Notes under the pieces: generated by a model | Seen by the model: only the letters and a program-made list of their open reading frames with translations | Told to the model about the DNA's origin: nothing | Database searches by the model: none | In this document: piece after piece, positions 5,318 to 18,892 of the stretch | Layout: every line of letters begins with the position of its first letter | Position numbering within the stretch: position 1 is the first letter of the stretch | Translations under genes and position numbers: made by a program | Origin: Chitinivibrionales bacterium | Lineage (GTDB): Bacteria > Fibrobacterota > Chitinivibrionia > Chitinivibrionales > WJMI01 | Length of the DNA: 45,279 bases | Assembly (NCBI GenBank): GCA_014728015.1 | Contig: WJMI01000164.1 | Location: 1-45,279, forward strand | Reading direction: 5' to 3'

Positions 5318-5349
5318 GGAGGATTCCTCCGTTGTGTGCTTGGCTGTGT

Positions 5350-5386
5350 GCCTGCAATATACCTACCGGACTTCGGACCTTCGCAA
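5350..5386 (-). promoter_or_regulatory. Candidate promoter for the 5317 gene
   Basis: On the minus strand a TATATT -10 box (5356-5361) lies 19 bases from a weak TTGCGA -35 box (5381-5386), followed by TTGCAGGC. The 13-base block from 5350 to 5362 recurs with one mismatch at 11614-11626, again exactly 33 bases upstream of a start codon. Confidence 0.4.
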
Positions 5387-5419
5387 GCCCGCGGAACTGA
5401 TCGCCGGCAAGCCGCAGGG

Positions 5420-6442
5420 CTATGTCAGCAGGCCCTCATACACTGCCGTCGGTGCGCTGCTGGCATCAAACATGCCGAAATATCCGCCGCGGTATGACCA
5501 GACGGTCCAGGGGATATTGTGACGCTCGAGCACCGACCTGAAATCCCGGATCCATGCCCGCCGAATCTCTGGGGGAGCGAACTCTATGACCCCGAACTCG
5601 CCGCAGTGGACCGGGCAGCCCGCCCGCTCGCCGGCGGCTATTACCGGCTGGATGTCCTGCTCCATGACCGACGCATCGGCGTAGCGGTTGTACTCGACCG
5701 CCTTCTCGCGGGCATCCGGCTTTGCATCAAGCCGCGCGAGATCTTCTTTGGCGATAGGAACTCCCGGATAGCGTATGGGCCCTTCATACTCGCGGCATCC
5801 GGTCACGAACGGCGCGCGATAATGCGTCACCTGCATGGGATCGTAGTAGTGAAACGTGAGCATGAGGTTCGGATCGTTTTTTGGTATGTCAAGGTTCGGA
5901 TAGGTCCGCACCTGGTTCCACCGGTTCGACCCGAGGATAAGCGTCCTGTCCGGTTCCCGCTCCCGGAGCGCGTGGTATGCCGGTTTGTACACCCTGTTCC
6001 AATCATCATCATTGTCGGCCACTGGTTCGTTCATCAGCTCGTACGCGACCGTGTCTGCCGGACGGGCGCGGAATTCCGCGGACAGTTCGCGCCATAAACC
6101 CGCGAACCGGTCCGGTTCTCCAGGATCGGTAAACAGGGTCCTGCGCCCGGGAATGTTGAAATGATGCGTTCGCAGGACGTGCAGCTCGACGATGGCGCGC
6201 AACCCGGCATTGCGCGCCCAGTCAAGAAAGCTCCCGACAACGTCCCAGGCCCCGGCGATACGACACCCGCGCGCATCCCAGAGGATGCTTTCCACCAGGG
6301 GCAGGCGCACGTGATCCAGTCCGATTGCCGCGCACCGGGCAAGATCCTTCTCGGTAAACCACCGGTCCTGGTCAAGAACATAGTCGCCGCCCATGTCTTT
6401 CCAGCCCCACATATTCACGCCGCGGCGGATTTCGAAAGTCAT
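5420..6442 (-). CDS. Glycoside hydrolase family 5 enzyme (cellulase/mannanase-like), no signal peptide
   Basis: 340 residues, the size of a single GH5 (beta/alpha)8 barrel. The N-terminal RRGVNMWGW and GLDHVRLPL segments are typical of strands 1 and 2. The acid/base is predicted as Glu139 in ELMNEPV, and the nucleophile as Glu282 in HCGEFGV; conserved aromatic and polar positions include HYYDP (199-202) and WTVWSY (312-317). It would cleave beta-1,4-linked glucans or mannans with retention; the substrate cannot be read. ATG 6442 has a GGAG Shine-Dalgarno sequence. There is no signal peptide or sorting tail, so as annotated it is cytoplasmic and would act on imported oligosaccharides. It lies 86 bases after the lipoprotein gene of the TonB-receptor row. 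Confidence 0.87.
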   Translation of the reverse strand: MTFEIRRGVNMWGWKDMGGDYVLDQDRWFTEKDLARCAAIGLDHVRLPLVESILWDARGCRIAGAWDVVGSFLDWARNAGLRAIVELHVLRTHHFNIPGRRTLFTDPGEPDRFAGLWRELSAEFRARPADTVAYELMNEPVADNDDDWNRVYKPAYHALREREPDRTLILGSNRWNQVRTYPNLDIPKNDPNLMLTFHYYDPMQVTHYRAPFVTGCREYEGPIRYPGVPIAKEDLARLDAKPDAREKAVEYNRYADASVMEQDIQPVIAAGERAGCPVHCGEFGVIEFAPPEIRRAWIRDFRSVLERHNIPWTVWSYRGGYFGMFDASSAPTAVYEGLLT

Positions 6443-6528
6443 ACTGTGCTCCTGATGGCTCCGGCGAGACGGGAGCGGGTGCTCATTCGGGGACTAATGG
6501 GAATCCGGAAGCAGGATTGATAGTTGTA

Positions 6529-7887
6529 CTAGAACCGTAAAATATCTTCACCTTTCTCAACCTTCTCTACATACGCATCCGTATACTCGAACCTGATATC
6601 CGCTCCTGCGAGGGACGAGCCGTAGGGACGAACAATCTCCCCTGCCGAGAAATCATACACCTGCACCCACAGGGTCGCGGTCGTGATGCCGGTGTCGAGC
6701 GGCGGAAGCAGTTGCTGGACCGGGCGTCCGCCGGAGCCGACAATCATGAGGTCGTTGGGATCCACGCCGTCCATTTCTGTCGAATCGTGCTGATAGAACC
6801 ATTGCGTGAAGTATGTTTCAGGTTCGATGGTGCCGTTCTTGGTGACACCGTCGTCGCGCATTTCCTCCCCGCGAATGATGCCGCTGTCGACCGCGACATA
6901 GTAGGTGTATCCGGTATCGAGAAGTATGGCGGCATCCGCGCCGGCCGTGTCCATGCGGCAGTATGCGGGACCAATTAAAAGGGTATCGCGCGGTTCTATC
7001 TCGAACCCGGCAGAAAACAGCACGTATGTCGTGTCGAGAATGCTCATCTCGGCGACGTTCAAGCGCACCGGAGCCGGGTTTTTCACTTTGTGAATGCCCA
7101 TGAAATGAATCACCGGATTCCGGTTGACCGATACGCCCGGAAGCCATGTCAAATGGCGGTTATAGCGCACGGTGAAATCGCTTTCCACTTTGTATACATC
7201 GTTTATGGTCGCGAAAATGCGGGCCGGCGCGGACATCGCCTGCAGGAAGAAATTCATGAACACCAGCGCACTGTCCAGGGCCGCACTGTCGGCCGAAACG
7301 CTGTCCGACGACATACCACCGAAAGAAGCCATGAATTCCTGGAACCGCGGGTCCTGGTAGACCTGTACGGGGTCCGACGTGGCCATCAGGTCGAGCAGCT
7401 CGACAATCTCCTCGCGCTCGACCCCCTGCTGCGCCAGCAGGTCTTCGCTCACGCCATCACTCTCGGCAACGACATCGTCCGGCACCCGGAAGCGGATTGC
7501 CCTGATTTGCGTCACCGACGTATCGAACCCAGAAACATCGGGCGTGACCTCTTCGTACTCGAGCTGCTCCACGCTTTTCACGGCATCGCCGAAATAGGGA
7601 CTCAGAATAACGTTCCACGATACGCCCCATTTGATTGATTCGATCGGCACGCCGGAGAAGTAGGCGACAAGCATCATGCTGTCGCCGGGCGCCGCCTCGC
7701 ACAGGGAGCTGTCCTGAAGGTTTACATACACGAAATCCAGCACGCGGGGACGGTCGCCCTGGTCGATACGCTCGAACCGGGTCGGCCAGTTGCTGCATCC
7801 CGCGACAAGCGCGACAGCGCCGCACAGTGCTGCCGCGAGCAGGCTCCTGCGGCCGCGCACACGCATTTCTGTTTCCCCGTTACGCAT
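6529..7887 (-). CDS. Large lipoprotein, partner of the TonB-dependent receptor
   Basis: 452 residues. The lipoprotein signal ends in ALVAGC with Cys31 as the lipidation site; a start at Met8 would leave a more normal n-region. The mature protein is acidic with many Tyr/Asp/Val strands and a Ser/Asp-rich helical insert near residues 170-215. No SusD-type TPR motif is visible and no family is recognised. Its start overlaps the receptor's stop by one base (TAATG), so the two are translationally coupled. That coupling, and the GH5 gene downstream, suggest a surface substrate-binding protein working with the receptor; this is inference. Confidence 0.68.
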   Translation of the reverse strand: MRNGETEMRVRGRRSLLAAALCGAVALVAGCSNWPTRFERIDQGDRPRVLDFVYVNLQDSSLCEAAPGDSMMLVAYFSGVPIESIKWGVSWNVILSPYFGDAVKSVEQLEYEEVTPDVSGFDTSVTQIRAIRFRVPDDVVAESDGVSEDLLAQQGVEREEIVELLDLMATSDPVQVYQDPRFQEFMASFGGMSSDSVSADSAALDSALVFMNFFLQAMSAPARIFATINDVYKVESDFTVRYNRHLTWLPGVSVNRNPVIHFMGIHKVKNPAPVRLNVAEMSILDTTYVLFSAGFEIEPRDTLLIGPAYCRMDTAGADAAILLDTGYTYYVAVDSGIIRGEEMRDDGVTKNGTIEPETYFTQWFYQHDSTEMDGVDPNDLMIVGSGGRPVQQLLPPLDTGITTATLWVQVYDFSAGEIVRPYGSSLAGADIRFEYTDAYVEKVEKGEDILRF

Positions 7888-10835
7888 TAGAACTCCGCTT
7901 TCAGTCCGATAGACGGTATCGAATACTGGTAGGCGTATCTCTTGTTCTCCGTGCCGGTCTCATAATCGTACGGCTCGGCACTGTTGAATATTGCGAGCTG
8001 CGGGCTCTTGTACAGGAAGTAGTTGATATTGAAGAAATCGACGTAGGCCGTGAACATCCACTTCTCGAACACGAATTTCTTGTCAATTCGCAGATCAAGC
8101 TGGAACGTCGGCGGCAGGCGTGTCGAGCGCGCTTCTCCTTCTTCCCGATCGAAGAAATGCAGGTGTTCGCGGTAGACCGAGCCGATAACCGGTGTCTGCG
8201 GGTCGCCCGTGGTGTACTGGAGCTTGAACCCGGCCTCCCAGTTCCGGGGAAGCCGCCAGCTGCCCACCGCGATCACGTTGTGCGTCTGATCTTTGCTGTA
8301 TAGCGCCCAGTCGTCTTCCTGGTAATCGAAATACTCGCTGCGGGAGAGCGAATACGCCAGCCACCCGAAGAACCGCTCGCTCTGATCGTGGCGGAGCATG
8401 AATTCCAGGCCGTACATGCGGCGCTTGCCATTGTCAAGAAACAGGCGCGAGCCGCCGGCAAGGTCGGTGCTGTCCGCGTACCGCGCGACCTTCCACTGCA
8501 TGTTGTAGTATCCCTGGACATCGGTGTGAACCAGGTCGGTGGCCTGCCACTCGTGGCCGAGCACGTAATGCGATGCGCGCGTGGCCGAGAGCGCGGGGTC
8601 GCCCCAGTCGGGGTGAATGGACTGGCCCATGGGCTCCGGGGTCTGGCTGTAGTTGCCGGTCGCCAGCTTGAGCGTGTGATCAGGAATAACTTCGTACCGG
8701 CAGGTCAGACGGAATGACGGTTCCCCTGAGAAACGCGTCTCGTTTTCCATGAAACCATAGTCCCAGAATTCCGGCACGTTGGCGCCCCGATAATCGAGCT
8801 CGGGAAAAAAATCGTACCGGATGCCCGGAATGATCAGCAGTTGTTCAACAGGCCGCCACTCCAGATTGAGATAGCCCCCTATCACACCGAACACCCAGTT
8901 ATCGGTAGTGTCGGCGTTGATTTCATTCGTTGCATCGATCAACACCAGTTCCATGTTGTAGGGCATGACCTGTGCATCGGCGCCGACATTCACCTGAAAC
9001 TGATCTCCCGGTTTCACGCTGACCTGGTCGCGCAGGTAATGCATCCACAGGTTCTCGGTCGATCGAAACGCTCCGCCGCCCGCTACTTCCGACTGCGCGC
9101 GCGTGGTCGACAGCCGAAGCGCATTGGTGACCGCGTCGGTGACCTTCCAGTCCCACCCCAGAAGGCCCATATGGAACAGAATCTCCACATTGAACGCATC
9201 TTTGGCATCGGATATCTCCGAGCTCCCGCCGCGTATCTCGCTGGTAATCAGCTCGAGCCCGTCCTTGACACCAAATCCGGTAACATACACGTGCTGGTTT
9301 TCGGTGATGTCAATGTCGGTGCGCAGGATATAATCCCAGTAGTAGGGCGCGGTGGTCAAGACAAACACCTGCGGGTTCCGGCTGACTCCGAACTTGATGA
9401 GGTCGCCGATGAAACTTCGCCGGACCTCCCCCAGCATGGAGACTTTCTTGTTTTTGCTCACCGGGCCTTCCACGAACAGCGCGCCGTCAAGGAAATTGGC
9501 ATCCGCATATCCGTGCCACCGGTCGGTCTTGGGACGGCGCCCGGTTACTTCGATGATACCCGCCACGGCCCCGCCGTACCGCGAGCCCCAGCCCCCGGGA
9601 TAGAAATCGACCGCCTCGAGCGCATCGGAGTTGTAGGTCGACTTGATACCTCCGAAATGGAAAAGCAATGGAATCTCAACCCCGTCCAGGAAAAACCGGG
9701 AATCGCCCGTCGATGCGCCGCGCACGACTATCTGCGACGAACCAAACGTGGGGCGCGCCACGCCCGGCAGGGCCTGCACGACCTTTACCGCATCCCCGCC
9801 CAGCCCGGGGACCTTCTTGACCTCGTGCAAGGTCAACTGGCGCCGGCTCACTTCCTTCTTCTCTTTCTTGCCGTATACTACAATTTCGTAGTCGGAATAC
9901 GAAACGCGATTGAGGCGGTAGGTGACCATGGTCTCCTGGGACGGCATGATGACTTCACGCTCGCGGAATTCCTCATAGCCCGTGGCCGGCACGGCGACCT
10001 CGATCGTGCAGGCAGGCAGCGAATAGAACCGAAACGCCCCAAGCGAATCGGTAATCGTCACCAGCCGGTCCTCTTCGAGGCCCTGCCCCTCGAACTGGCC
10101 CAGGCGCTCTCGATAGGCGCTGAACGGAACCGGCAGCGAGGTGTCTGACACGGTGTCAACAAAGGAAACGACCACCATGGCATCGGCAATGGGAGAGCGG
10201 GTGCCGCGCTCGACCAGCCTGCCGCTGAAATTGACATACTTCTCGACCCTCTCCACGATCTCCTGAAGCGTAAACGCATACTCATACTGAATAAGCACCG
10301 GTATCGGCTCGCCCTCGGAGATGGCCGGGGTAAACTCGAATTGTCTCAACGCATCCGCGGCGCTTTTGTCCAGCACCGGGTGCACGCCGCGCACTACCGC
10401 GACACTGTCCACGGTCCCGCTGTCACTCACGACCACGTCCAGAAGCACTGCTCCCTGGATCCCCCGGCCGTAGATCTCCGGCGGATATCGGGCATCGACC
10501 CGCTTCACGATTTCGGGCATGCGCTCGATAGGCGGCAGCTCGTCTTCGACAACCACGGTAGTGTCTTCCGCAACAATAGCAGCCATGCTGCCGGCCGGCG
10601 CAATCGATGCTGAATCCTCTGCCCGCGCGGCGGTGGCCGGGACTTCCTCGAGCTCAATTTCCGGCGCATCGACATGAGCAGCCGCTTCTTCTTCTACGCC
10701 ATCACCGGGAGGGAGCTTGACGGCCGCATCGGTCGAATCGGCCGCAAACACGCAGCAGGCACACCACCCGATTACGCCCAGGACGCGCGCGCGCCGCAAT
10801 GCCTCAGAAGAGTTGTAAATGTCCTCGAGTACCAC
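7887..10835 (-). CDS. TonB-dependent outer-membrane receptor with an N-terminal TonB C-terminal-type domain
   Basis: About 982 residues from GTG 10835, chosen because AAAGGA lies six bases upstream and the start then follows the previous gene's stop by 17 bases; the open frame continues to 11138 but there overlaps that gene. A signal peptide (ARVLGVIGWCACCVFAA) is followed by an acidic linker, then a TonB_C-like domain at about 105-190 (YPPEIYGRGIQGAVLLDVVV, FEFTPAISEGEPIPVLI). A carboxypeptidase-regulatory-like domain follows at about 200-290. The plug lies near 330-430 (VPGLGGDAVKVVQALPGV, VVRGASTGDSRFFLDGVEIP), and a beta barrel runs to the end, finishing in an aromatic-ending strand (SIGLKAEF). 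It would import a large ligand across the outer membrane. The TonB-like domain is unusual. Confidence 0.88.
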   Translation of the reverse strand: MVLEDIYNSSEALRRARVLGVIGWCACCVFAADSTDAAVKLPPGDGVEEEAAAHVDAPEIELEEVPATAARAEDSASIAPAGSMAAIVAEDTTVVVEDELPPIERMPEIVKRVDARYPPEIYGRGIQGAVLLDVVVSDSGTVDSVAVVRGVHPVLDKSAADALRQFEFTPAISEGEPIPVLIQYEYAFTLQEIVERVEKYVNFSGRLVERGTRSPIADAMVVVSFVDTVSDTSLPVPFSAYRERLGQFEGQGLEEDRLVTITDSLGAFRFYSLPACTIEVAVPATGYEEFREREVIMPSQETMVTYRLNRVSYSDYEIVVYGKKEKKEVSRRQLTLHEVKKVPGLGGDAVKVVQALPGVARPTFGSSQIVVRGASTGDSRFFLDGVEIPLLFHFGGIKSTYNSDALEAVDFYPGGWGSRYGGAVAGIIEVTGRRPKTDRWHGYADANFLDGALFVEGPVSKNKKVSMLGEVRRSFIGDLIKFGVSRNPQVFVLTTAPYYWDYILRTDIDITENQHVYVTGFGVKDGLELITSEIRGGSSEISDAKDAFNVEILFHMGLLGWDWKVTDAVTNALRLSTTRAQSEVAGGGAFRSTENLWMHYLRDQVSVKPGDQFQVNVGADAQVMPYNMELVLIDATNEINADTTDNWVFGVIGGYLNLEWRPVEQLLIIPGIRYDFFPELDYRGANVPEFWDYGFMENETRFSGEPSFRLTCRYEVIPDHTLKLATGNYSQTPEPMGQSIHPDWGDPALSATRASHYVLGHEWQATDLVHTDVQGYYNMQWKVARYADSTDLAGGSRLFLDNGKRRMYGLEFMLRHDQSERFFGWLAYSLSRSEYFDYQEDDWALYSKDQTHNVIAVGSWRLPRNWEAGFKLQYTTGDPQTPVIGSVYREHLHFFDREEGEARSTRLPPTFQLDLRIDKKFVFEKWMFTAYVDFFNINYFLYKSPQLAIFNSAEPYDYETGTENKRYAYQYSIPSIGLKAEF

Positions 10836-10852: not shown

Positions 10853-11581
10853 TCAGAACCTTACCCTGAGTGATACGCCGGCTGTACCGTCGGCGCGCGC
10901 TATCGGCACAATGGTAATGCGTTTTGCTTCCCGTGCCTCGCCAACAACGCCAATCCGCTTGAGATAGAGATACGAATAGATACCGGCAAATGCCCACGCA
11001 GCATCGGCGGCGATGCCGACCCCTGTCGCGGCGCCGGCAAGAAGCTCGTCGCTTATGTATTCCTTCGCGGTATCTGTATACATGCGCAGGAGAAACGGTG
11101 CAAAGGAAAGCGCGCCCGCCGCCGCGGTCAGCCCCCATCCCGAGAAGTAGATCGTCCAGGAGAGATTGCGCGGCGCATCCTCGTGCATGAACCGCTCAAA
11201 TGCATCCGCCACTTCAGACGTTCTCATGCACGCCATCGGCGGGCCGGCATAGCGAAGGCCTGAGGCCAGAAGAGAAGGGCTGAGCAGGGCAAGCTGATCT
11301 TCCAGGTCCTCCGGGCCAAGCTTCTGGCTTTGGGGAAGTATCAGCCCGTATTGAATGATCGCGCCTGAGAGAAAAAGCGCATTCCCCGCAAACACGGCCG
11401 AGCGCTTCTGCTGCACAATCGATGACACGCGACCCGGCCGCGCTTCTGACTGTGTGCTTCTCGGCTCCCCGACGGACACTCCAAGTGTCTCGGACGGAAC
11501 CGCCCCGGGGGAGTTCTCTGATCCTGAAGGTGCAGCTATCAGGAAGGTTGCGCAAAGTATGGGTAGAAATGGTTTGTACAC
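10853..11581 (-). CDS. Membrane protein of unknown function, first gene of the receptor row
   Basis: 242 residues from a GTG at 11581 with AGGA upstream. The first 20 residues look like a signal peptide (FLPILCATFLIAAPSG). A Ser/Gly/Pro-rich linker follows, then hydrophobic stretches AVFAGNALFLSGAIIQYGLIL, WTIYFSGWGLTAAAGALSFAPFLL and AGAATGVGIAADAAWAFAGIYSYLYL, consistent with three membrane segments. It ends in a strand-like SLRVRF. No family is recognised. It lies 17 bases upstream of the receptor start and probably shares its transcript, so a role in the same transport system is plausible but unproven. Confidence 0.55.
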   Translation of the reverse strand: MYKPFLPILCATFLIAAPSGSENSPGAVPSETLGVSVGEPRSTQSEARPGRVSSIVQQKRSAVFAGNALFLSGAIIQYGLILPQSQKLGPEDLEDQLALLSPSLLASGLRYAGPPMACMRTSEVADAFERFMHEDAPRNLSWTIYFSGWGLTAAAGALSFAPFLLRMYTDTAKEYISDELLAGAATGVGIAADAAWAFAGIYSYLYLKRIGVVGEAREAKRITIVPIARADGTAGVSLRVRF

Positions 11582-11837: not shown

Positions 11838-13139
11838 CTACGGATCCCGAACCAACCGAACAGAAAACCCAAACTGCTTAAGGTAGTTGTAGCTGTTCAG
11901 GGTCTCATAGTCGTAGTACAGGTAAAACAGGAATGCGAGTGCTCCACCATACTCCGGATTTGTTGTCGCGCTCCACCAGTATGCATAGCTACTCTGGTTG
12001 ACGAAACTGCCATAGTGGTCACGAGAACCGGCCGGAAGAGCCGAAAAACCGGAACTGTTGTTGCCACTCGGGCCGTTGCCAACATCGCCTGCCTGGCTCG
12101 CAAGATCCCATGCCGTCTTCGCGGCCAGTGACTTGCCTATCTTGTTAGCGCTGGTGCTCCCGTCCCAGTTGTACCCGTTGGCTATCAAGTACTCCTCCAG
12201 TTGCGTCCAATCGTCGTAAGTGGGAATGCGCCACCCCCCTGTCGCGCGAGTCAGCTTGCCCGTATTCAGTACATACCAGTTATACAACGCGCCCCATTTC
12301 TCCTGAATGGCCGGCGTGGAGCTGTTGTCGTAGAAGCAATATCCGGGGGTGGTGAGATTCGACCACGCGGTGGCATCTGTTACGAGGGGAATGGCGCTGC
12401 CGTCATTGTACTTCGTGGCGCGAAGGTTCTCTACTGTCCATACCTGATTTCCAATCCGCACGGTCTGATACTCGTTCCCGTCCGCATCCGTCACGTTCCC
12501 GGCATTGGGAACCATCTTCACCACGATACCACTCGTATCAGACGTTTTGATGGAATCTCGATAATCTATCTGCCCCTCTTTTACGACAAGCATTTCGTCA
12601 GAGATTTCCGAAGATACCTTCATCTGCTTGGCCAAAGCGGAACTACCATTTGAAACACGTTTTCGTTCTATTGAAACAGCACTATAAGGAGCCAACTTGA
12701 TTATATGGTGTTCTTTCCCGACAGACACTCTGGCGAAGAAGATGCCTGCGGACGGGAGAGGTAGTTTCATTGCATGTGTGCCTGAACCGTAGGCTTGCTT
12801 CGTGTGGAAGATCCGCCTGCCGCCAATCGTATGGATGCTAATCTCGACTGATGTATTCTCGAATACATGTAGGGTTATCTTCCCGCTTTGAAGCCGAACA
12901 GAACCCGCGGTCATTGCGGCGCTTTGTACATTCTGTCGTATTTGCGACGAGTTGTCGGTAAGAGTGAAGCTTCCATCAGCTCCCGACGTTGTGGATATAC
13001 CCGCGACCACAAGTGTTACCGTTGCTCCGGAAATTCCAGCGCCGCCGCTGTCCTTGACAACTCCGCTAATGTTCATTGCCTGGGCCATGCAAAGCACTGA
13101 TGCCAGGAAAACCGCAGTAACAGTTTTGGACGAAATCAC
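11838..13139 (-). CDS. Exported FISUMP-domain protein
   Basis: 433 residues from a GTG with GGGGAGG upstream. Order of parts: signal peptide (1-21), carboxypeptidase-regulatory-like domain (22-62, ISGVVKDSGGAGISGATVTL), an internal sorting-tail-like strand region (about 95-150, VEISIHTIGGRRIF ... AGIFFARVSV), a linker, and a FISUMP domain (about 217-433). Hallmarks of the last are DADGNEYQTVRIGNQVW, NWYVLNTGKL, GWRIPTYDDW and FSVRLVRDP. The domain is a hugely expanded family in Fibrobacter, without an established enzymatic role; it may bind ligands at the surface. Codon use is visibly AT-richer than the neighbours', and the gene splits the tonB operon from the receptor row, which suggests a later insertion. 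Confidence 0.88.
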   Translation of the reverse strand: MISSKTVTAVFLASVLCMAQAMNISGVVKDSGGAGISGATVTLVVAGISTTSGADGSFTLTDNSSQIRQNVQSAAMTAGSVRLQSGKITLHVFENTSVEISIHTIGGRRIFHTKQAYGSGTHAMKLPLPSAGIFFARVSVGKEHHIIKLAPYSAVSIERKRVSNGSSALAKQMKVSSEISDEMLVVKEGQIDYRDSIKTSDTSGIVVKMVPNAGNVTDADGNEYQTVRIGNQVWTVENLRATKYNDGSAIPLVTDATAWSNLTTPGYCFYDNSSTPAIQEKWGALYNWYVLNTGKLTRATGGWRIPTYDDWTQLEEYLIANGYNWDGSTSANKIGKSLAAKTAWDLASQAGDVGNGPSGNNSSGFSALPAGSRDHYGSFVNQSSYAYWWSATTNPEYGGALAFLFYLYYDYETLNSYNYLKQFGFSVRLVRDP

Positions 13140-13213: not shown

Positions 13214-13993
13214 TCACGTCCCGAGAAGCTCGAACCGAATGGGGATGGTAATCCATACGGCCACCGGCCGTCCGTCCCGGGTTGCCGGCTCAAAAAGCGC
13301 ATCGAAACACGCGGCGCGCGCAACCTCGGCCGACCCGTACCCGAGGTCCTGCTGTACAACTGCTTTCTTTACTTTGCCGTCCACATCAATAAGCACTTTC
13401 ACCTTGATCACGCCCTCAACCTGGTTTTCGCGCATCTCGGCCGTGTACTCCGGCCGCGGTTTTCTGAGGTAGCGCGGATTTGTCTCGACGGTCGTGACTG
13501 ACACCAGCTCCCCGACAATGTCCTTCCTGGTAGCCTCAACATCATCGATTTCCTTGTTGATGGTATTGCCCAGCTTGCCGATAACCGCATCGGAAAGCTT
13601 TCCGCCCGCGCCAATACCCGTGCTGTAGACCTTTTTGAGGCCGTAAATGCGCCGGGTCTGGCGTTTTGGAGACCGTTTCCGGATATCATCCTCTTTCTGC
13701 TTCAGCTGGGGCTTGTCGCTCAAATCCACCGGTTTGTCTTTTTTCTTGACTTTCTTCGGCTCTTTCTTGACAACGGGCGGTTTCTTCTCTTCGATGACGA
13801 ACCGCGCCCGTATGCGCGACATGCGCTCCTTGATATCGATTTCCTCAGGCTCGACGGTCGTGAAATACGCTCCCATCCCGAGAAAGGCCGACACCGTGAC
13901 CACCAGCACAGCCTTGAAAAGCCCTTCGACCAGGCCGGCATGGGTCGGTACATACAGCTCGTATGCCTTGAGGGATGGTGCTTTGTCCTGCAC
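13214..13993 (-). CDS. tonB: Energy transducer TonB
   Basis: 259 residues. A single membrane anchor lies at about 24-46 (LFKAVLVVTVSAFLGMGAYF). Next comes a charged Lys/Pro-rich periplasmic stretch (about 68-110, many KKEP/KKKDKP units) and a long linker. The TonB C-terminal domain spans about 170-259: PRPEYTAEMRENQVEGVIKV, LIDVDGKVKKAVV and FEPATRDGRPVAVWITIPIRF. It couples the ExbB/ExbD motor to outer-membrane receptors, presumably including the one at 7887-10835. It is last in exbB-exbD-exbD-tonB, three bases after the second exbD. Confidence 0.9.
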   Translation of the reverse strand: MQDKAPSLKAYELYVPTHAGLVEGLFKAVLVVTVSAFLGMGAYFTTVEPEEIDIKERMSRIRARFVIEEKKPPVVKKEPKKVKKKDKPVDLSDKPQLKQKEDDIRKRSPKRQTRRIYGLKKVYSTGIGAGGKLSDAVIGKLGNTINKEIDDVEATRKDIVGELVSVTTVETNPRYLRKPRPEYTAEMRENQVEGVIKVKVLIDVDGKVKKAVVQQDLGYGSAEVARAACFDALFEPATRDGRPVAVWITIPIRFELLGT

Positions 13994-13996
13994 GGG

Positions 13997-14467
13997 CTAT
14001 TCCTCTTCAAACGTGAGCACCGTGAAATCCGCAAAACCGGCTCTGCTGCACGAATACATCACGCGTTTCACAATATTGAACTCCACTTCTTTGTCGGTCT
14101 GAATCATCACCTCAGGGGCCTTGGCGGTGTCGTCGCATTTTTCCCGCTCGACCCGCATCCAGTCGTACAGAGTTGGTATCAGAAGCGAATCCGCGTCTGC
14201 GAAACTCTCGAGCGCGGCCAGCACGTTGCCGTCGGCAACCACCGCGTTTCTCGTGATTTCGATTGAGCAGGTCGGCCGGGGCGGCTTCTCCGATGTAGAG
14301 ACCGGCAGCTCCAGGTCCGGCGACGGCGTAACGAGGTTGCCCTCGACCGAAAAACTCTTGATAAGGAACACCAGCAGAATAGTCATGACATCCACCAGCG
14401 ATGTCAACTGGGGACGGAACGTGCTGCTTCCCGGTTCCTGAGCGTGGCTGACAGCAGGTATTCGCAT
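13997..14467 (-). CDS. exbD: ExbD/TolR-type biopolymer transport protein (second copy)
   Basis: 156 residues from ATG 14467, one base after the stop of the first exbD. One membrane segment (about 24-40, LVDVMTILLVFLIKSFS) carries Asp26, the position of the proton-carrying Asp of ExbD/TolR. The periplasmic domain ends with PEVMIQTDKEVEFNIVKRVM and a FADFTVLT strand, as in ExbD. Residues CSIEITRNAVVADGN align with the region after the membrane helix. The sequence differs clearly from the first copy, so the two may form a heteromeric plug for the ExbB pore or serve different partners. Confidence 0.85.
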   Translation of the reverse strand: MRIPAVSHAQEPGSSTFRPQLTSLVDVMTILLVFLIKSFSVEGNLVTPSPDLELPVSTSEKPPRPTCSIEITRNAVVADGNVLAALESFADADSLLIPTLYDWMRVEREKCDDTAKAPEVMIQTDKEVEFNIVKRVMYSCSRAGFADFTVLTFEEE

Positions 14468-14468
14468 C

Positions 14469-14960
14469 CTAGAGTTCTCTCCGGCTCTCGTCGGTGGCGC
14501 TCGACAGGCCGATCTTGGGAAACCCGAGCGCACGGCAGGCATCCATAATACGCACCACATGTTTGAACGTGATCCGGTCGCGTACCGCCAGAATGACCTC
14601 ATCCTTGATTTCCACGTCCTCGCGATGCGCCCGCAGCCGTGCCGCCATACCATCGACATCGTACCGCCCGGCAACAAGCCCGAGCGAATCGAGCATGCGC
14701 TCGCCGTGCGTGATGGCCAGATAGTCGGGCGCAACCACCACCGTCAGCTTCAGCTTGGGTTTCCCCGAGGATGCATCCAGGCCGGTGCCCACATTGGGCG
14801 GAAGGGAGAACTCGATTATGGCCAGGTGGGTGAATACCGCCATTGACACGAGAAACGGTATCAGGATGATGAACATGTTCATCACCGGCGTGACATCAAT
14901 GTCCGCCGCCTCGGCTGCTTCGGAGGGCGACCGTTCGCGCGTGAACGAGAGCGGGGTCAT
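14469..14960 (-). CDS. exbD: ExbD/TolR-type biopolymer transport protein (first copy)
   Basis: 163 residues. After a short cytoplasmic part, DIDVTPVMNMFIILIPFLVSM forms the single membrane helix with Asp22 at its start, the ExbD/TolR proton-site position. The periplasmic domain has the usual VVVAPDYLAITHGERM strand pair and DEVILAVRDRITFKHVVRIM near the end. The start overlaps the ExbB stop by four bases (ATGA), so the two are coupled. It works with ExbB and TonB to use proton flow for outer-membrane transport. Confidence 0.88.
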   Translation of the reverse strand: MTPLSFTRERSPSEAAEAADIDVTPVMNMFIILIPFLVSMAVFTHLAIIEFSLPPNVGTGLDASSGKPKLKLTVVVAPDYLAITHGERMLDSLGLVAGRYDVDGMAARLRAHREDVEIKDEVILAVRDRITFKHVVRIMDACRALGFPKIGLSSATDESRREL

Positions 14961-15589
14961 GAGCGCTTCTTCTTGAAGTAATTCAAGGTCCGCACGACAG
15001 CTTCATCCAGGTCTTTCACCTTGCGCTCGCGGAGATTGGACAGCATGGTATACATGATCATGCAGGGGACGGCCACGATGAGCCCGAATGCCGTGGTGTT
15101 CATGGCCTGCGAAATGCCCCGCGCGAGCATGGTGGCTTTCTGAGTGGCTTCCACGGCCGCCAGCGAGCTGAATGAAACCTGAAGCCCGGAAATGGTGCCG
15201 AGGAGCCCGAGAAGCGTGGCAATATTGGCGAACAGGGCGAGGTAGTTCAGCCGCTGCGACATCTTGGGCATCTCCCGTATCGCGGCCTCTTCCACGCCCT
15301 CGCGGATATCTTCGACCGGCATGTCGGCATCGAACCGCTCGAAAGCCGTCCGGAGAAGCACATCCACCGGCGCTTTTCTGCAGCATACGATCCGCCGCGC
15401 CTCATCGGTGCTGCCCGCATTCATGGCTTTTGCCAGCTCGGCGGCCATCCGGACGCCCTGGCTGCGACAGATGACGAAATAGAATATCAACCGTTCCACC
15501 ACGACGGCGCACGCGACGGCAAGCACGACCAGAATGACCCACATGAACGGTCCGCCGGCGTTAAACTGCCGGGCAATTGTGTCAAGCAT
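14957..15589 (-). CDS. exbB: ExbB/TolQ/MotA-type proton channel protein
   Basis: 210 residues with three membrane segments: about 15-41 (FMWVILVVLAVACAVVVERL), about 125-150 (LALFANIATLLGLLGTISGL) and about 165-190 (FGLIVAVPCMIMYTMLS). GLLGTISGL and the following MARGISQAMNTTAFGLIVAVP match the conserved ExbB/TolQ core, with the conserved Thr in the second helix. It forms the pentameric proton channel of the TonB motor. It is first in the operon; an AGCAGGT Shine-Dalgarno sequence precedes ATG 15589. Confidence 0.9.
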   Translation of the reverse strand: MLDTIARQFNAGGPFMWVILVVLAVACAVVVERLIFYFVICRSQGVRMAAELAKAMNAGSTDEARRIVCCRKAPVDVLLRTAFERFDADMPVEDIREGVEEAAIREMPKMSQRLNYLALFANIATLLGLLGTISGLQVSFSSLAAVEATQKATMLARGISQAMNTTAFGLIVAVPCMIMYTMLSNLRERKVKDLDEAVVRTLNYFKKKRS

Positions 15590-16379: not shown

Positions 16380-17087
16380 TTATCCCTGGGCCAGCCGCTC
16401 GGAAAGCTCTTTGTAGCGCGAGCGGCTCAACGGCAGCACGATACCATCACGCAGCTCAAGCTCATACTTGCCGCCCCCGTGGATATGCACGTTGACCACT
16501 TCACGCATGTCGACAATGTAGGACTTGTGGGTTCGCGAGAAACGACCGGGAAGAATTCGTTCGAGTGACTCCAGCGACTTGCTGTGCAGGGCAACGCCGC
16601 CGTCGCGAAGGTGAATCTCGGCATAGTCACCGGCGCCCTGCAGGTAGAGGACCTGGTCGACCGGGATTATCTGGAGACGCCCCTGGTTTCTCACCACCAG
16701 CACCTGCGCCGGCTGAGGAACCGGCTGCGCGGGCGGCTTCTCCAGCCGTTCGAACGCGCGCATCAGGCGCTCCTTTTCGAACGGCTTTGGGACAAAGTCA
16801 AGGACGCCATACTCGTAGGCCCGGATCGCCTGATCGGTATTGGCTGATACGATAATCGTCTGAAATGACTCGGCGACCGCCCTGGTAAGGAGATCAAAAC
16901 CGTTTTGCCCGCTGAGGTTGAGATCGAGAAGGAGGATATCGATGGAGTGCCGGGCGAGATATTGCTGTGACTCCTCGAGCGATTCGCGGATATCAACGGT
17001 CGTCGTCTTGTCCCCGAGGACCTCCTTTACAAGTCGCGCGAGCCGCCGCGCCGCGACCTTTTCGTCTTCAACGACCAGGATTCTCAT
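16380..17087 (-). CDS. LytTR-family response regulator
   Basis: 235 residues. The receiver domain covers 1-120: acidic pocket E7-D8-E9 (VVEDEK), phospho-acceptor Asp55 in LLLDLNLSG, and Lys101 in VPKPF. A Pro/Gln-rich linker leads to a LytTR DNA-binding domain at about 130-233, with VLYLQGAGDYAEIHL, LERILPGRFSRTHKSYIV and PLSRSRYKEL all typical. It would bind direct repeats in target promoters after phosphorylation by the kinase encoded just upstream. Its start overlaps the kinase stop by four bases (ATGA). Confidence 0.93.
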   Translation of the reverse strand: MRILVVEDEKVAARRLARLVKEVLGDKTTTVDIRESLEESQQYLARHSIDILLLDLNLSGQNGFDLLTRAVAESFQTIIVSANTDQAIRAYEYGVLDFVPKPFEKERLMRAFERLEKPPAQPVPQPAQVLVVRNQGRLQIIPVDQVLYLQGAGDYAEIHLRDGGVALHSKSLESLERILPGRFSRTHKSYIVDMREVVNVHIHGGGKYELELRDGIVLPLSRSRYKELSERLAQG

Positions 17088-18892
17088 GCACCCTCCCCCT
17101 CAATCTCCACAGTCACCTGCCATCCGTCATCAACCGGCCCCGCCGCCAGCGACCAGCGCCCCGGAAACGCCTCCTCGAGGCGCGTACGGACGTACCGGAG
17201 GCCCGTTCCCTCGACAAAGTCCTCACGCCGGGCCTCGGCCGCGCTATCGTTGTGAAGCATCAAGGTCAGCGTCTTATCACGCCGCCCGCCCCGCAAGGTA
17301 AACACGCCGTGGTCCTTGCCCCTGTACCCGTGAGTCAAGCCGTTTTCCACAAGCGTGTGGATAACAAGCGGCGGCAGGCGTTCCGACCCATCGATCCCCT
17401 CGGTGCGCATCTCGAACCGCTTTTCCTGCCGAAGGCTCATCACCTTGAGCTGCGCCTCGCACAGACGGATTTCCCGTTCCAGTTTGATGGTTTTCCTGCT
17501 CGAGAAGGAGAGCAGCATGCGGAGTTCGTCAGCCAGCGCATTGACCAGCCTCCCGGCGGTCTTTGGTTCTTCCTCGAGCCACGCCACAATGGAATTGAGA
17601 GAGTTGAGGAGGAAATGGGGCTGTATGTGCCGCTTCAGAAGCTCGATTTCGAGTCGCGCCGAGCGCAGTTGGGTCTCCTGGTGCCGCCGGTTCCGCTCGG
17701 CCATCTGGCGGGACAGCGACACGGTAATGACCAGTATTACAAATGCGAATCCAATGGCCCAGCCGTGCTCGGCCCGCGTGCGATACGAAACATAGGCACC
17801 AATCAGAAATATCAACAGCCCTACCAGTACCGTAACGCTTCCCGGGCGCCGGCGGCGGATCGCCCACACCGTGACGAAGATCGACAGCACGATAGTCGAG
17901 ATCGACTGGATGCGGTTCATGCGATCGAGCGCGGGAAGCCATTCGACCGGGAGCACCCCGAACGCGGCGAATCGCGGCATCAGTACGATAGCGAGCGTCA
18001 TGACCGCAATCAAGACGGAGAGGCGCTTCTGGTAGGGTGCGGAGAACTCAAACAGGAAAAAGATCGGAAGGAGCGACATCATGAAAAACCACGGGATGTC
18101 GTTGAGCGTTCCGAGAAGGAAGTAGTAGCCGAGGTCAATCTGGAAGTAGCGCAACATACTCTGGATAACGATATAGGTCGCGCATGAGAGGCAGAATGCG
18201 CTGAACAGCGCGGAGGGCCATTTGTTTGCGTGGCCCAGCAGCATGGCGATATGGAAAATCGCGGTGACTACGAAGATCCCGGCCAGAAACAAGGCAAGGG
18301 CGCCGCTGCGAAACAGGCGCATCTGTATTACCCCGAAATAAGCCAGCTGCACAGGCGGCGCCACCAGCCCGGAGAAGCTGTGGTGGTTCGACATGCGCAT
18401 GGCAATGACATGCCTGCCGGCCGAGGTCAGCGACCGGTGAATCGGAAACACGCGACCGGACCGACCCGGGACTTCATCCGCGGGTGATTCGCCGACTTCG
18501 CCGTTTCGTGCCACGAGCTGACCGTCCCAATAGATCTCGCTCGCGCTCACCGCCGCGACCTGATACAGCGCCAGAGATCTCCCCGACTCAAGTGCCCCGG
18601 GAAAGAATATCTCTTTGCGATACCAGCGCGTTCCCTTGCCGGGCCCGCCATCGCTGATCCACAAACCGCTTCCCTTGTCCCATTCCCAGTGCGTATCATC
18701 GTACGCTGGATCGGCCCAGGCCATGCTGTCCCCGTAGAATGTCCGCCAGCCGACAAGGTCCGTGATCGGCGTTTCATCGAAAAACACGTACTCGGGGCCA
18801 TCGAACGACTCGTCGAACTCCTCCTGGGCGGGAGACAGCGCGACAAATGCGCACATCAGAAGGATAAATGCGGTGAGCGTACTGCGATACAC
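17084..18892 (-). CDS. LytS/YehU-type sensor histidine kinase with a periplasmic beta-sandwich-like region
   Basis: 602 residues from a GTG at 18892. A signal peptide is followed by a periplasmic region (about 30-180): GTRWYRKEIFFPGAL, SEIYWDGQLVARNGEVG and RHVIAMRMSNH. This resembles the jelly-roll folds of 7TMR-DISM sensors and GH2 sugar-binding domains. Several membrane helices follow (about 195-405), then a cytoplasmic coiled segment. The His_kinase domain has RHIQPHFLLNSLNSIVAWLE, with His426 as the predicted phospho-acceptor, and an ATPase with LVENGLTHGY as the N-box. The G-box region is reduced to VEGTGLRYVRTRLEEAF. It pairs with the LytTR regulator at 16380. The signal is unknown; a carbohydrate is plausible. 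Confidence 0.9.
   Translation of the reverse strand: MYRSTLTAFILLMCAFVALSPAQEEFDESFDGPEYVFFDETPITDLVGWRTFYGDSMAWADPAYDDTHWEWDKGSGLWISDGGPGKGTRWYRKEIFFPGALESGRSLALYQVAAVSASEIYWDGQLVARNGEVGESPADEVPGRSGRVFPIHRSLTSAGRHVIAMRMSNHHSFSGLVAPPVQLAYFGVIQMRLFRSGALALFLAGIFVVTAIFHIAMLLGHANKWPSALFSAFCLSCATYIVIQSMLRYFQIDLGYYFLLGTLNDIPWFFMMSLLPIFFLFEFSAPYQKRLSVLIAVMTLAIVLMPRFAAFGVLPVEWLPALDRMNRIQSISTIVLSIFVTVWAIRRRRPGSVTVLVGLLIFLIGAYVSYRTRAEHGWAIGFAFVILVITVSLSRQMAERNRRHQETQLRSARLEIELLKRHIQPHFLLNSLNSIVAWLEEEPKTAGRLVNALADELRMLLSFSSRKTIKLEREIRLCEAQLKVMSLRQEKRFEMRTEGIDGSERLPPLVIHTLVENGLTHGYRGKDHGVFTLRGGRRDKTLTLMLHNDSAAEARREDFVEGTGLRYVRTRLEEAFPGRWSLAAGPVDDGWQVTVEIEGEGA

Follow-up and report, generated by a model that had tools for sequence, protein, structure and literature searches.

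A TonB C-terminal domain at the N-terminus of a TonB-dependent receptor from Fibrobacterota

TonB depends on a membrane anchor that carries a motor motif, and TonB and TolA domains bind their targets by β-strand addition (PMC12204202). As long as FpvA is unloaded, its signalling domain incorporates the TonB box of the receptor into its own sheet, and the signalling domain of FecA blocks access to the TonB box (PMC11658791). Only carboxypeptidase-like, STN and AMIN domains make up the five N-terminal architectures distinguished in a census of 34,893 receptors (PMC6434023). VreA of Pseudomonas aeruginosa, a protein related to receptors, also bears a TonB/TolA-like domain (PMC2729926).

Here we analysed 45,279 nucleotides of contig WJMI01000164.1 (assembly GCA_014728015.1) from a Chitinivibrionales bacterium, hereafter the window, which encodes a TonB-dependent receptor preceded, in the same chain, by a TonB C-terminal (TonB_C) domain. 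The receptor has this domain in common with the energy transducer TonB, but the domain lies N-terminal to the barrel, behind a signal peptide and without membrane anchor or motor motif. Oar/SusC-type receptors show the same order of parts, in this protein a putative carboxypeptidase-like domain followed by TonB box, plug and barrel, although Oar is described without a TonB_C domain (PMC6434023). In contrast to the STN transducers FpvA, FecA and FoxA, sequence and topology both identify the present domain as TonB_C, with no STN match in the protein and no FecR in the window, and unlike this receptor, VreA is a small periplasmic protein of STN and TolA/TonB-like domains that has neither plug nor barrel. 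The NCBIfam model of MxcH (NF038079), the myxochelin receptor of myxobacteria, starts with a TonB_C-like stretch, and both residues 106-195 of the receptor and the TonB of its operon match this model within positions 1-90. The receptor match is nevertheless confined to the N-terminal stretch (52.4 bits, under the cut-off of 925), and no siderophore genes were seen here. Since the MxcH model already has such an N-terminus, the architecture is not wholly new; it is present in databases but missing from the one published N-terminus census that we found (PMC6434023), and our literature search returned no description of a TonB_C-receptor fusion and no experiment on any member of the family. Even if the domain does not bind TonB boxes, a conserved architecture from at least three phyla is thereby added to the published list of receptor N-termini.

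Domain organization of the receptor

The receptor is encoded by a minus-strand open reading frame of 982 residues, at the position given by a first-pass annotation of the sequence; its start codon is GTG, with AAAGGA six bases 5' of the start. The following parts were delimited.

7887..10835, minus strand: TonB_C-bearing TonB-dependent receptor (open reading frame, Pfam, AlphaFold, PDB fold matches)
10743..10835, minus strand: Sec-type signal peptide, residues ~1-31, without S-x-H-x-L-x-S (sequence, AlphaFold helix 7-27, orthologue N-termini)
10527..10742, minus strand: acidic disordered linker, residues 32-103 (pLDDT <50)
10248..10526, minus strand: TonB C-terminal domain, residues 104-196 (Pfam, NCBIfam, orthologue profile, AlphaFold)
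10266-10490, minus strand: Pfam TonB_C core, residues 116-190
9909..10235, minus strand: carboxypeptidase-D regulatory-like (NTE) domain, residues 201-309 (weak Pfam match; AlphaFold strands with pLDDT ~90)
9867..9887, minus strand: TonB box EIVVYGK, residues 317-323, conserved in the family (alignments; pLDDT <50)
9558..9794, minus strand: plug domain, residues 348-426 (Pfam)
7890..9515, minus strand: β-barrel, residues 441-982 (Pfam, AlphaFold, PDB matches)

The first-pass annotation had proposed a TonB C-terminal-type domain at residues ~105-190, distinct from STN and followed in one chain by a carboxypeptidase-like domain, plug and barrel. Pfam TonB_C (PF03544) scores 51.1 bits (E 1.9e-13, residues 116-190, cut-off 24.6) and the NCBIfam tonB_Cterm model 45 bits, over its cut-off, in agreement with the AlphaFold model; the proposed extent was near right and needs only a small correction, to ~104-196. 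The proposed domain order also holds in Pfam and AlphaFold: the plug (28.1 bits, cut-off 23.9, residues 348-426) and the barrel (43.1 bits, cut-off 27, residues 560-933) score above threshold, CarboxypepD_reg at residues 259-303 lies below it (23.7 bits, cut-off 32.3), and the canonical TonB box comes after the carboxypeptidase-like domain and just before the plug in the chain. The N-terminal region scores neither as a plain carboxypeptidase repeat nor as STN, the latter identity being excluded by the absence of any Pfam STN match in the receptor at E up to 0.1 and of any above cut-off in the genome. With a profile of 30 orthologues, the N-terminal part best matches solved TonB C-terminal domains and the plug part matches receptors.

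In the AlphaFold model (63 sequences, mean pLDDT 86), a signal helix is followed by a linker predicted as disordered (27-99) and then by a TonB-like domain (101-195) that is modelled confidently (pLDDT 85-93) and has the TonB order of short helix, two strands, helix and third strand; a β domain at 201-309, the plug and the barrel are likewise confident. The model's best PDB matches are the receptors FptA, BtuB and Cir. A TonB-like N-terminus, as anticipated, is therefore predicted with confidence, and the above-cut-off profiles, the model and the conservation of the domain together exclude a chance match or artefact. Within the linker there are short acidic/hydrophobic strand-like motifs such as APEIELEEV and EDTTVVVEDE; repeated motifs of this kind, at residues 58-66 and 91-99 here and as EIIVID in the receptor N-terminus of locus L159, resemble TonB or TolA boxes.

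Gene cluster and partner lipoprotein

On the minus strand, exbB-exbD-exbD-tonB is succeeded by a FISUMP gene, a conserved gene for a small protein, the receptor gene and a lipoprotein gene. The separate TonB already noted at 13214 is confirmed by its own Pfam TonB_C match.

14957..15589, minus strand: ExbB/TolQ-like proton channel protein (Pfam, NCBIfam)
14469..14960, minus strand: ExbD/TolR-like protein 1 (Pfam)
13997..14734, minus strand: ExbD/TolR-like protein 2 (Pfam), true start probably nearer 14460
13214..13993, minus strand: separate TonB with its own TonB_C domain (Pfam)
11838..13139, minus strand: FISUMP (Fib_succ_major) protein inserted in the cluster (Pfam, NCBIfam)
10853..11581, minus strand: small protein between tonB and receptor, with a homologue at the same place in one relative (41% identity)
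6529..7887, minus strand: conserved partner lipoprotein with lipobox VAGC (lipobox, locus comparison, AlphaFold)

The start of the lipoprotein gene overlaps the receptor stop (TAATG). The lipoprotein model (pLDDT 87) is made of Ig-like β sandwiches with a helical insert; Pfam names no family for it, and a fold search gives weak Ig/cadherin-like matches with low TM-scores. Among the non-myxobacterial loci with enough sequence, 18 of 33 have ExbB upstream and 17 of 33 TonB, while 44 of 50 have the lipoprotein downstream; the corresponding counts for myxobacterial loci are 4 of 19 for ExbB and 0 of 23 for the lipoprotein.

Several neighbours were also observed. The FISUMP protein (11838-13139), located between tonB and the receptor gene, has a sub-threshold carboxypeptidase-like match. 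A histidine kinase with a weak 7TMR-DISM match and a LytTR response regulator (16380-18892) lie beside the exb/tonB cluster, and close homologues of this pair are found beside the cluster in L069/L088. The lipoprotein gene is immediately followed, in the same orientation, by a GH5 cellulase gene (5420-6442), for which no counterpart was seen at this location in the relatives that were compared.

Distribution and origin of the fused domain

TonB_C and Plug coincide in one of the seven plug-bearing frames of this genome and the receptor family was found in 42 of 121 genomes in a survey of the phylum, showing that the fusion is not standard for every receptor of the phylum. Nearly every genome of the same order has orthologues that align from TonB_C onward, and the family is absent from all listed genomes of one family, inferred to be that of Fibrobacter. 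A scan of a genome collection gave no loci with the single protein as query and 78 with an alignment as query, belonging to Fibrobacterota, Raymondbacteria, Krumholzibacteriota and Myxococcota. TonB_C is carried by 71 of the 79 receptors (the 78 loci plus the window). Of the eight without it, L114, L127 and L131 begin at a contig edge and L124 is split over two frames, L117 and L128 have the carboxypeptidase domain only, and L129 and L154 have neither domain; other family members have TonB_C and no carboxypeptidase domain. The existence of members lacking one, the other or both indicates that TonB_C is an add-on module. L112 and L129, and L115 and L128, are pairs from the same genome, and in each pair the copy with TonB_C lies beside exbB/exbD/tonB and the copy without it does not. 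In a Myxococcus genome four frames combine TonB_C and Plug, among 15 Plug matches, and in an Archangium genome three, among 16. Plasmid records gave only distant receptor matches, all of them beginning past the TonB_C domain.

Mean conservation is highest in the plug (0.60), followed by TonB_C (0.50), the barrel (0.456) and the carboxypeptidase domain (0.385). As the domain is retained in so many relatives and is better conserved than the barrel, the fusion is not accidental; it is old and common to relatives in at least three phyla (Fibrobacterota, Krumholzibacteriota and Myxococcota). In a tree of the domain, with few columns and many weak forks, the receptor copies and the operon TonBs fall in separate groups, which disfavours, with limited support, a recent fusion of the adjacent tonB gene. 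It is thus likely that the domain has been passed on as part of the receptor, without renewed acquisition from the neighbouring tonB.

Other arrangements were encountered in the same searches. A second TonB_C-bearing family of ~850-910 residues is present in the order (L046-L052, L063, L065); the two members scanned have Pfam TonB_C and no plug or barrel, with a weak carboxypeptidase match in L046. L160 (Anaeromyxobacter, 5338-8568) has a weak second TonB-type match, to TonB_2, at residues 59-118, ahead of the receptor TonB_C, and L157 carries a near-identical TonB_C behind a long repetitive N-terminus. In the split receptor of L124 (1248-2123 and the next frame) TonB_C is in the first frame, the result of a frameshift or an assembly error.

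Possible roles of the N-terminal domain

Our preference, still a tentative one, is for an ordinary, TonB-powered receptor with an accessory periplasmic strand-binding module at the place of STN, which would control access to the TonB box. The separate TonB would drive the receptor via its conserved TonB box. Judged by eye, the receptor N-termini resemble cleavable signal peptides without the S-x-H-x-L-x-S motor motif, so that TonB_C, with no membrane anchor, cannot transmit force here and is not an energy transducer. It may rather bind a β-strand in the periplasm, in the position occupied by STN in FpvA and FecA, and thus determine at what time or by which partner a TonB box, either that of the same receptor or a neighbour's, is taken. 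By analogy, since TonB-type domains add strands and the FpvA/FecA domain at that place controls the box, strand binding and a regulatory role appear the most likely for this copy as well. Against this preference, AlphaFold leaves the receptor's own TonB box (~316-323) disordered (pLDDT <50) and not docked on the TonB_C sheet, and, unlike in STN systems, no FecR-type partner is found on this contig, although FecR-family matches do occur elsewhere in the genome. Co-variation also speaks against it: by distance correlation over 20 operons, expressed as partial r beyond the barrel and ExbB signal, the receptor TonB_C has no excess co-variation with the operon TonB (partial r 0.07, p 0.22), whereas the operon TonB co-varies with the plug (0.19) and the carboxypeptidase domain (0.17). 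The undocked box and the missing co-variation lend no support to the simplest forms of such a module, and the functions suggested in the first-pass annotation (swapping onto a TonB box, competition with the separate TonB, linking of receptors) are conjectural.

It is possible, if rather doubtful, that these proteins form a distinct ancient receptor class whose domain grips TonB boxes at the outer membrane, either in cis or from one receptor to another. Equally tentatively, such capture would gate or couple receptors independently of the inner-membrane TonB. If the domain does bind TonB boxes, hand-off of the box would be controlled from the receptor side too, and not by TonB alone.

The domain may grip a target other than a TonB box or TonB, such as the substrate being imported, some periplasmic protein, peptidoglycan or the partner lipoprotein, and serve in cargo passage or tethering of the receptor. 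FusB, a TonB homologue, directly binds its protein substrate (PMC13253070), and as it is the TonB domain of FusB that does so, cargo binding would be a serious alternative by analogy. The lipoprotein, adjacent in most non-myxobacterial loci, is also in line with another target, but its absence in the myxobacterial members speaks against this, and we regard the reading as a whole as doubtful.

We judge it unlikely that the domain is a docking site for a dedicated TonB (or ExbD), in which the receptor TonB_C would dimerise, recruit the operon TonB and give specificity among TonBs. In its favour, exbB-exbD-exbD-tonB often immediately precedes the receptor gene, and the FusB TonB domain exists in a monomer-dimer equilibrium (PMC13253070). 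However, this idea too meets the lack of excess co-variation with TonB, about half of the fused receptors are encoded away from any tonB gene, and L117, a relative without TonB_C, is also located behind tonB.

Chains of receptors, in which TonB_C would take the TonB box or acidic strand motifs of a second molecule, seem very unlikely. Many Fibrobacterota members do have acidic linkers with strand-like motifs, such as the repeated EIIVID of L159, but the motif, chosen after looking, is modestly enriched (8 of 34, compared with a mean of 2.6 after shuffling), the motifs are absent from the linkers of myxobacterial members, and nothing directly links two receptors. Least probable of all is a left-over of an old fusion with no role now beyond that of a spacer or an aid to folding, which would fit the family members without TonB_C but not a domain that is better conserved than the barrel across three phyla.
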